Shown here in pieces: positions 5,730 through 15,797 of a stretch of DNA of 64,000 nucleotides. Below the pieces are notes generated by a model that was not told the DNA's origin, ran no database searches, and saw nothing but the letters and a program-made list of their open reading frames with translations. Made by a program: the position numbers and the translations under genes. The stretch comes from Opitutus sp. GTDB taxonomy: Bacteria > Verrucomicrobiota > Verrucomicrobiia > Opitutales > Opitutaceae. How positions within the stretch are numbered: position 1 is the first letter of the stretch; each line of letters begins with the position of its first letter. The stretch spans positions 434,001 to 498,000 of the forward strand of contig JACEUQ010000001.1 of NCBI GenBank assembly GCA_024998815.1, read 5' to 3'.

Positions 5730-5875
5730 AGCCGCAGGCTAAGCACTCCAACTGGGGCTTCGCCATCCCAATTATTGGGCTTGGTCTCTTTGCCCAGAAG
5801 AGGCCCGCCGATTCATTTAAACCGCGAAGGCTCTAATTTGCGCGTGGAATTTGGGGGGGGCTGACGCCTTGTTTT

Positions 5876-7174
5876 TTATGTGGCCACCAGCTGGGCCTCA
5901 CTTGCTTCGAGGTGGGCGATTTCCATGCTGACCAGGCAGACGTCGTCGGGAAACACATGGCCTGCTGCGAATAACTCGATCTCGGCGATCACCGAGTCGA
6001 CCAATTGCGCCGGGGGTTGCCCCGCGCGTTGTTCAAATGCGTCCCTCAGCCGGCCCTCCCCGTAGGATTCATTCAGGGTATTTTCCACCTCAAAGAGGCC
6101 ATCCGTGAAGAGCAAAATGAGGTCGTCGGCAGCCACGGGGAATGCGTACGTGCGATATACCTCCTCCTCAAACAGCCCCAGTGCCGGGCCAGCGGTGTGC
6201 TCAGGGGTGAGTTGCACGACTTCCCTGGGCTCGTTGCGCACCAGCAGCGGGCTGGGATGCGCGGCATTGGCCACGGTGATGCGCGATTTGCCGATGTCGG
6301 CCACGATGTAACAGGCGGTGGTGAACAGGGTGATGCCGGACTGGCGCAAAATGCCGCACAGGCTCTGGTTGATTGCCGTGAGCAGGGCCCCCGGATCGGC
6401 CGCCAAGTCCCCCAGTTGCTCCTCAAGTGCACGCATCATTGCGGTGACCAACGCCGCCCGAACCCCGTGGCCCATCACGTCACAGATGAACACCCCCACG
6501 GCGGACTCCGAGACGCGCACCACGTTGAAAAAATCCCCGCTTACCGAGCTCGCGGGATGAAAAATGCTGGAGAATTTCACCGCACTCGTCCCTTGCAGAG
6601 TACCGTAGGGCAGGGTGGGGAAGCGGTGCGGCAGCAGTGCCAGTTGGAGTTCCTTGGCCATGGTCAGATCCTCTTCCATGCGCAGATTCTTTTCGCGCAA
6701 CTCCCGGGTGCGATCGGCGACCCGTTGCTCCAGTGCTTCGTTGAGCGCCCGTAGATCGGCCTCGGCTTGGCGTAGCGCCTGGTGTTCCGCCACCTCTCGC
6801 AACGCCCTCCGCACCGCTGGAACGAGCCGGGTGAGCCGATCCTTGAGAACAAAATCGGTGGCCCCGTTTTTGAGCAACTCAACGGCGGTTTCCTCGCCTA
6901 CTGCACCCGAAATTATGATGACGGGCACCTCCGGGCTGCAGTCTTTGGCCAGAGCCAACGCCTCACCTCCGTCAAAGGTTGGCAGCTTGTAATCGGCCAG
7001 AATGAGGTCGGGGCTGAACTCACTGATCTCACGCAGGAAATCCTCCCGTGTCTGCACCCGGCGCACGACGAAATCGATCCCGCCGCGTTTGATCTCACGC
7101 AGGATCAACTCCTCGTCCGTATCGGAATCCTCGAGCGAGAGGATGCGCAAGCCGACTAGAAGGGCTTCAATCAT
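5876..7174 (-). CDS. Response regulator with SpoIIE-type PP2C phosphatase output
   Basis: A 432-residue two-domain regulator. Residues 9-125 form a receiver domain with acidic pocket EDSD and probable phospho-acceptor Asp61 in [10 protein letters not shown] coiled-coil linker rich in Glu/Arg follows (about 135-185). The C-terminal half is a SpoIIE-like Mn-dependent phosphatase with [29 protein letters not shown] and [13 protein letters not shown]. Such proteins are RsbU-like: phosphorylation of the receiver controls dephosphorylation of an anti-sigma antagonist. No anti-sigma factor or antagonist gene is in the window. Its ATG overlaps the end of the upstream response regulator by 8 bases, so the two are co-translated. 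Confidence 0.92.
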
Positions 7175-13743: not shown

Positions 13744-14311
13744 GTGCGATCATGAAACTAACAACCACAACAGTGAAAGTCTGTTCGACCGAATTAAACG
13801 ATTCGCGGTCGAAGGGCTTGGTCACGGACGACTGCCGCGAGGCAGCACCGGAAAGCACGACCGAGCTACGAACCGGCCAGCCGCAACGAAGGTGAACCCC
13901 ATCGAATGAGCTTCGAAAATTCAACAACCGGCAAGCCGAGCCAATCTTCGACTGGTGAAGGCTGTCAGGATCGGGCAGGGCAGTCCCGCAAGGACGTAGG
14001 ACCCAAATCGTTGATGTCCGATCAACGTGCCGGCGGAGTCTGCGGGGGCGGCGGGTCGGGAAGGGGTGTTAGGTTAAGTGGTGAGACCTGCGATGGCGGG
14101 GTGTCCTCGGATGCTCCAACCTCCGGCACAAGTGCGGCTAAACCGCGCGAGGCAGGACGGGCCGTGGCAGGAGTCGGAGACCTCCATAGTAGTGATGATC
14201 TAGCGGACATTAAAACCGCTGGGGAGCGAAGGGAGGGCACTTGTTCCCACTGCATCACAGCGTGGCGAAGGACTTGACGATGGCTGGAGTGATGAACTCT
14301 GGATAAAAACG

Positions 14312-15670
14312 TTGCCCAAAGTTCGGAAGCTGCAACGGGTGCTATATCGTAAAGCAAAAGCGGAGCCGCGTTGGCGGTTCTATAGTTTGTATGGAGAGCT
14401 GTATCGGCGGGACATACTGTCCGATGCGCTCGATCAGGTGATCGCCAACAAGGGCGCTGCCGGAGTGGATGAGTTTGAGGTGGAAACGTTGGCGAAAGAT
14501 CCGTCGTTGCGAGAAGTTTGGCTTCTGGCGCTGGAGGAGGAATTGCGAACGAAAACCTATCGGCCGAGTCCGGTCCGGCGCGTTTTTATATGGAAAGATC
14601 AGGCCAAGACCAAGCGCCGCGCGCTGGGCATCCCTACGGTGAAAGATCGGGTGGTGCAGAGTGCGGCGGCGATCGTGTTGCAACCCATCTGGGAAGCGGA
14701 CTTCCATGACCATTCCTACGCCTACCGGCCGAAACGCCGGACCCATCAGGCGATGGATAAAGTCAGGGAGGCGCTGCTGAGCGGAAAGGTGGAGGTGGTC
14801 GATGCGGACCTATCGAGTTACTTCGATATGATCCCGCACCGAGAACTCCTGCGACTGGTGGCTAAACGGGTGAGCGATGGCAGCATGTTGCGCCTCATCA
14901 AGGCGTGGCTGCGCGCGCCCATCGTGGAGGAGGATCGTGATTCGGGACGCCGCAAGGTGCACCCAAATCACTGTGGCACGCCGCAAGGCGGAGTCATTTG
15001 ACTCCCTCCGGTCGGGCTCTTAGCCCCGCTCTGCTGAGCGGCCCATCTCCGCTGCGCTTCGTCACCGCTCTTGGCGAACCTCTATCTCAACGACCTCGAT
15101 CATGCGGTGAACGAGAAGTGCGAACAAAAGCCGACGATGGTGCGCTACGCCGACGACCTGCTGATCCTGTGTAAACCGGGTCAGGGGCCGGGGCTGCAAA
15201 CGCGTCTGAAGAGGTGGCTGGAAGCACGAAAGTTAAAACTCAACGAAGAGAAAACCCGGCTGGTGGACACGCGAAAGGAAGGCATCGAGTTCCTCGGTTT
15301 TAGCGTCGCATGGCGGCAAGGACTGAAGAGCAAGCGGTGGTATCCGCACGTGGAACCCAGCGCGAAGAGTCAGGCAAAGCTGCGAGACAAGGTGCGGCAG
15401 GTGCTGGAGGTGCGCACGCGAAACCAAGCGGCGGTGGCGGTAGTCCGAAAGGTCAACCAGATCACGCGCGGGTGGGCGAATGCGTTTCATTATGGGCACA
15501 GCACACACGTGTTTGGTAAGCAGCAGCTCTTTGTGCAAAACCGGCTGAGACGATGGCTGTGGCGAAAGTATAGCCGCACCCACGGGCTGTTTGAGTTCTT
15601 CACCGACGAGCGTCTGCATGGACAATACAAGCTATGGCACTGGCCGCTTACGGCGGCTTGGAAACAATGA
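14312..15670 (+). pseudogene. ltrA: Group II intron reverse transcriptase/maturase, interrupted
   Basis: Intron-encoded protein that normally binds the intron RNA as maturase and copies it into DNA. The first part (14312-15001) carries RT motifs through RRALGIPTVKDRVVQ, YAYRPKRRTHQAM, VDADLSSYFD and GTPQGGVI. The second part (15071-15670, open from 15062) resumes with SPLLANLYLNDLD, the catalytic MVRYADDLLIL, and the thumb/maturase X domain (ITRGWANAFHYG, RLRRWLWRK). There is no C-terminal endonuclease domain. The parts are separated by 63 bases, exactly 21 codons, holding two in-frame TGA codons. Without bypass or removal of that segment the protein is split before the catalytic aspartates. 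Confidence 0.88.
14999..15061 (+). other. 63-nt frame-preserving insert with stops inside the RT gene
   Basis: The insert falls between codons for GVI and SPLLANLYL, one of the most conserved blocks of group II reverse transcriptases. It begins with TGA and has a second in-frame TGA at 15035-15037. It can form short hairpins: GGAGTCA/TGACTCC across the 5' junction, GGGCT/AGCCC and CCGCTC/GAGCGG. Removal of exactly 63 bases restores the consensus protein. Confidence 0.75.
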
Positions 15671-15708
15671 ACTCCGCTGAAACCAAACCGAAAGAATTGA
15701 GACTCGGT

Positions 15709-15741
15709 AAGCCGTGTGCGGGAAAACCGCTTGCACGGTTT
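15709..15741 (+). ncRNA. Group II intron domain V
   Basis: Hairpin of 33 bases starting AAGCCGTGTGCGG, with a GAAA-like loop and returning CCGCTTGCACGGTTT. It contains the AGC catalytic triad near its 5' side and matches the size and shape of group II domain V. It lies 38 bases after the end of the reverse transcriptase frame, the usual place. Confidence 0.8.
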
Positions 15742-15797
15742 GACGAGGGGGAGGGTCGCGCTGACGGGTTACCGACGCACGGCTCTCTCTACTCTAC

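Follow-up and report, generated by a model that had tools for sequence, protein, structure and literature searches.

The window, that is, the whole 64,000-nt stretch of Opitutus sp. DNA that was analysed, contains a group II intron (copy A) whose reverse transcriptase (RT)/maturase gene is interrupted by a 63-nt insert at 14999-15061. The codons GGA GTC ATT precede the insert and TCA CCG CTC TTG follow from 15062; the initial annotation had described the insert as exactly 21 codons that split the GVI/SPLL block of a group II intron RT, and this was borne out. It had also reported an in-frame TGA at the start of the insert, which is correct, but had overlooked a second one: translated in the RT frame the insert reads *LPPVGLLAPLC*AAHLRCAS (* = stop), with in-frame TGA at insert codons 1 and 16. 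The insert, with its two stops, breaks the RT gene of copy A. The features of the locus are as follows.

About 13744-15797, + strand: group II intron copy A, host of the insert (from sister comparison and the Rfam domain V match)
14251, + strand: extra T relative to four sister introns, taking the RT frame out of phase with the ATG at 13906
14312-14998, + strand: 5' half of the RT/maturase, ending in GVI (TIGR04416 positions 2-186)
14990-15005, + strand: hairpin GGAGTCA-TT-TGACTCC at the 5' junction, half host codons and half element
14999-15061, no strand assigned: insert with two in-frame TGA codons; empty site in 19/19 sister loci
15000-15064, - strand: RtT-like palindromic element (65/65 positions of covariance model R1); its last three bases overlap the codon TCA
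15014-15026, no strand assigned: abutting hairpin GGGCT-CTT-AGCCC
15027-15040, no strand assigned: hairpin CGCTC-TGCT-GAGCG
15043-15064, - strand: conserved module, here TGACGAAGCGCAGCGGAGATGG
15062-15670, + strand: 3' half of the RT/maturase, SPLLANLYL to the terminal TGA (TIGR04416 positions 190-353)
15707-15797, + strand: group II catalytic intron match (Rfam RF00029)

The 5' end of copy A was set by comparison with sister introns, and the 3' end by the Rfam domain V match together with the end of similarity. Both RT halves match one NCBIfam model, TIGR04416 (2-186 and 190-353), and therefore hardly any RT position is missing. The dN/dS ratio of the window RT against three sister copies is 0.125-0.135 for the 5' half and 0.084-0.091 for the 3' half, and such values (0.08-0.14) point to copy A having been a working gene until evolutionarily recently. 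The earlier statement that the gene carries no other stop or frameshift stands within both RT halves, but the extra T at 14251 had been missed. The RT frame of copy A contains no ATG, GTG or TTG before the TTG at 14312; in the sister L030 the frame is open from the ATG that matches 13906. Changes at first, second and third codon positions number 3, 3 and 11 in 14081-14250, and 9, 16 and 13 in 13906-14080, a pattern that would support coding in the former segment and not in the latter. The intron copies that were compared sit 3' of a short hairpin motif, such as AACTTCGGAGTTC.

Counting copy A, 62 matching intron pieces were found in the same genome. At least 19 are other long copies of this intron, among which the window copy is an outlier, diverged by about 14%; the long sister pieces mostly share 84-87% identity with copy A in the 5' part and 89-90% in the 3' part. 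The insert site is empty in all 19 sister loci that were fetched (L030-L048), with the allele TATATCGCC in 16 and CATCTCGCC in 3. Open frames of 601-602 codons are present in 14 of these loci; further along, four or five of the 19 carry disruptions or alterations. As such, the insert disrupts a single copy of a redundant gene. Recurrence, which had been proposed as a check, was found in the form of one further, identical copy in the genome, but not at the same site in any of the 19 sister introns.

The insert was also used as a query beyond its own genome. Among 273 genomes of the order there were seven partial relatives, all with the same right end; the 63-nt query gave no match at E <= 0.001 in 12 congeners. 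The relatives share a family-wide 21-nt module, GACGNAGCGMAGCGGAGATGG, adjoining abutting hairpins. The pattern CCNTCTCCGCTKCGCTNCGTCR (up to two mismatches) was found in 73/273 genomes of the order against 13/273 for a reversed control, and part of the 73 positive genomes is therefore due to chance. Across 84,980 species (one genome each) the exact tail occurs in 21 stretches, 20 of them titled as Verrucomicrobiota groups; the other one is in a Nitrosospira metagenome-assembled genome and lacks the usual flanks. At least two genomes of the order have elements that recur unchanged in Puniceicoccaceae records (L025 and L069, L027 and L054). The plasmid collection gave no match, and among viral contigs the exact tail was found in one stretch (L070). 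Five exact 15-mers of the module are absent from 5.39 million open-access papers, and no description of the element family was found among the best matches, chiefly open-access papers, in the literature on Verrucomicrobia.

The structure of the family was captured in a covariance model, R1, built from 29 hairpin elements with the window copy left out. We started from a list of 45 elements (L084, L089, L101 and L127 excluded) and removed near-duplicates and, by eye, some others; 25 of the 29 members are located 3' of a tRNA gene, the exceptions being L022, L051, L059 and L070. R1 matches the insert at 52.7 bits (E = 6.2e-12; E = 3.7e-10 in a search of the whole genome), and genome-wide it places just the two identical copies below E 0.1, a third place standing at E 0.195. 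Over 61 genomes of the family, own genome included, 28 have a match at E 1e-4 or better, and in loci mostly picked for having no nearby tRNA the model gave 15 matches in 14 loci (E 7.3e-5 or better). A fuzzy scan of 29 loci misplaced or missed the module in several of them and was excluded from the counts.

Folds of single elements are mostly weak (mean z of -1.4 over 44 cores), and the hairpins were therefore tested at the level of the family; for the insert the single-sequence fold is unremarkable, with an RNA z of -0.5, or -1.3 with flanks. The 44 cores were chosen by requiring GGATT, GGGTT or GGACT in the flank, 25-56 nt ahead of the tail, and contain a few probable non-members, e.g. L084, L101 and L127. 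Two abutting perfect hairpins beside the conserved tail, as in the insert, arose in 6 of 2000 shuffles of its sequence; by the module of the other cores they are found in 31 of 44, whereas 50 shuffled sets gave 0.18 on average and never more than 1. The arms of the two hairpins come in 16 and 21 different sequences, and in the alignment of the 29 members both sides have changed in 7 of the 11 consensus pairs. Judged from this alignment, the element stems vary by compensation. The hairpin GGAGTCA/TGACTCC across the 5' junction, which had been pointed out before, is present and is probably fortuitous. By sequence and structure, the insert belongs to the element family of tRNA tails.

Members of this family usually reside in repeated tRNA 3' ends that follow a tRNA gene. 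The contexts compared number 91. In 56 of them the element is located 3' of a tRNA gene, at a distance of up to 800 nt and in one relative orientation; in 31 the fetched stretch has no tRNA. Of the four left over, two are far from the tRNA, one has the opposite sense and one is located 5' of the tRNA. Where a tRNA is nearby, the element is typically found at the T-loop position of the repeated tRNA 3' end, GGGTTCGACG...AATCCC. This habitat is not universal, and the insert, which lies in an RT gene, is found outside it. In several loci (L063, L088, L090, L094, L115, L116 and L118) tRNA-3'-end units carrying the element are arranged in tandem; such arrays lie behind tRNA-Gln, Ser, Met and His genes and resemble the E. 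coli tyrT repeats. In the viral stretch, an IMG/VR contig, the element (L070:4823-4886) sits in the T-loop of an apparently complete tRNA-Ser. Parts of both flanks separately match another tRNA-Ser; neither ARAGORN nor Rfam called a tRNA at this site, and E. coli genomes gave no DNA-level match to the element plus part of its flank. An ORF at 5788-7077 of the same contig is, by appearance, a putative tyrosine recombinase.

One of the known systems closest to the family is RtT (Rfam RF00391), which was originally discovered as an RNA that the E. coli tyrT transcript sets free (PMC4986893). Locus L059 scored 46.0 bits with the RtT model against a cut-off of 45, the sole match among five sources tested; in the 18 tRNA-tail sources RtT was found in three (L059, L081 and L088), two of them below the cut-off. 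The GGUUCGAGUCGAGCGAAGCGAGA of RtT aligns with the family module, and the tRNA-tail units of the family share with RtT GGATGAGAACC, the T-arm GGTTCGA, a GAGCGAAGCG-like module, hairpins, AATCC and a copy of the acceptor end. The window insert differs: it covers only the segment that separates the T-loop halves, its host is a protein gene, and the region around it (14900-15160) gave no RtT match up to E 5. The sX4 model matched 11 of the 18 tRNA-tail sources at 25-44.5 bits, below its cut-off of 70, the matched stretches taking in the tRNA gene.

Other repeats resemble the insert in part. Elements similar to rtT are reported as belonging to the BIMEs of Enterobacteria (PMC2965389). REP/BIME and GTAG- or CGTC-tagged palindromic repeats (PMC3733652) are likewise short, hairpin-forming and sometimes located within genes, and GTAG repeats are reported inside genes of O. 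terrae (Verrucomicrobia). The insert element ends in an unpaired CGTC (CTTCGTC, in the 15058-15064 region), as CGTC-tagged REPs would. CGTC families are characterised in that source by a single 8-9 bp stem that starts with A-T, a loop of 4-5 nt and mostly a CCA tail, and the five phyla listed there do not include Verrucomicrobia. Membership in the CGTC-tagged REPs was considered and rejected, since the insert has several short abutting stems instead of the single 8-9 bp stem given there. Rickettsia palindromic elements (RPE) are reported as being read in frame inside genes (PMC3733652); the insert resembles them as a palindromic element of frame-keeping length in a coding gene, and differs in its two stops.

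The second genomic copy of the insert is located at L001 (designated C2). Here the element heads an 803-nt stretch that reaches the 3' end of the intron; compared with copy A it has no mismatches before 15085 and 90 mismatches over the remaining 713 nt, and from base 78 on it is 95-98% identical to sister copies. Upstream of the element there are 73 nt of a repeat arm, not intron. At L001 the element thus marks the point where a palindromic repeat arm meets the 3' half of a further intron copy. This join may have originated from deletion between two element copies, adjacent deletion, abortive retrohoming with template switching, or conversion.

The repeat arm belongs to inverted pairs spanning approximately 175 nt in the own genome and in G012, a genome of the same genus. 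This palindromic repeat, with the ends CCCGAACTCCTGAGTT...AACTCAGGAGTTCGGG, was seen in several genomes of the genus, at L001, L109, L112 and L114 of the own genome and at L106, L107 and L110 of relatives; its right end is similar to the intron insertion site. Copies L109, L114 and L106 are empty (CACT^CGAAGC), and so is the diverged L107. The G012 copy (L110) carries at the matching place a different element of about 97 nt, CATT[...]CGAAGC, which holds a diverged family module (19.1 bits, E = 0.002 with R1).

The explanation that we favour is that the insert is a displaced copy of an RtT-like palindromic element, one that is usual in repeated tRNA 3' ends across Opitutales; we consider this very probable. 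The element is of a known kind in an unusual place. Most of the alternatives fare poorly against the same evidence. Ordinary decay, i.e. an insertion that arose at random or through slippage in an intron copy that was dying, would agree with the extra base that copy A has at 14251; as the origin of the insert it is very unlikely, because the insert matches an independently built structured model over its full length (E = 6e-12). A small self-excising or spliced segment would account for the clean empty site of the sister copies, yet it is equally improbable: no Rfam intron family matches the insert, its relatives are mostly found in tRNA tails or elsewhere in apparently non-coding DNA, and splicing of the members in tRNA tails and repeats would restore no protein. 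In the bypass of T4 gene 60, ribosomes pass over an in-frame-length gap that opens with a stop codon and is bounded by matching take-off and landing codons. The insert resembles it as a gap of in-frame length that starts with a stop codon, and the idea that ribosomes skip or read through the 63 nt to make a full RT is in keeping with the length of 21 codons and with RT halves that are intact and under purifying selection (dN/dS 0.08-0.14). We regard it as improbable in the extreme, since the take-off codon ATT and the landing codon TCG do not match and the insert contains no ATT; readthrough would have to pass two TGA stops in a gene that TGA itself terminates; the RT frame is, relative to the sisters, also out of phase with the ATG upstream; and the elements related to the insert vary in length and are mostly located outside genes. 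The multiple-of-three length, formerly the main ground for interest, is uninformative because family members do not keep to such lengths: division of core plus tail by three leaves a remainder of 0, 1 and 2 in 22, 9 and 13 of 44 cores, many of which are related. The length of the insert looks like chance.

Recombination with L001 is the main rival to transposition. The C2 locus may have passed the insert to copy A through gene conversion or recombination, in place of direct insertion, a course of events that we hold to be possible but rather unlikely. In its favour, CATT, the insert and the sequence up to 15084 are identical at the two loci, in front of 713 nt that differ at 90 positions, and the allele TCACCGCTCTTGG is common to both loci and is found in none of the 19 other copies. 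Against it, the insertion in the window is exact and keeps every host codon, and a one-sided conversion with CATT as the left homology needs luck.

As to how a displaced RtT-like element came to this site, it would have entered an ATT^(T)CG-like target without target duplication; other members of the family may have made parallel entries into the T-loop sequence GGATT^CGAACC and into the middle of the approximately 175-nt palindromic repeat (CACT^CGAAGC). The earlier suggestion of a small mobile palindrome is supported as far as a small dispersed palindromic element is concerned, but mobility is deduced. The absence of a target duplication, the left flank of ATT or a near form of it and the fixed right end CGTC are reminiscent of single-strand HUH transposition; the most likely route would be single-strand (HUH, REP/RAYT-like) transposition in trans. 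The own genome has five Y1 transposase (Y1_Tnp) matches, none linked to the element. Copy A would make no maturase of its own and, with no recoding, could at most splice or move with the protein of a sister copy. A broader and tentative proposal, which we think has a smaller chance of being right than of being wrong, is that the RtT core is a mobile DNA, conserved in structure and hypervariable in its stems, that enters ATT^(T)CGA targets, has colonised the tails of many Opitutales tRNA genes and sometimes escapes to other repeats and retroelement genes, and is moved in trans by a single-strand transposase. If true, RtT RNAs would be recast as domesticated or parasitic mobile DNA. With a clean empty site, 19 sisters uninterrupted there and a second type of repeat that carries a relative, the locus presents an RtT-like tRNA-tail element away from tRNA genes, and mobility of the RtT/BIME type therefore becomes directly testable. 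Apparently shorter forms around GCTACG CCATCTCCGCTTCGCTCCGTC were also seen at L119-L125, loci with no tRNA, and some of them are flanked by ATTTCGA.
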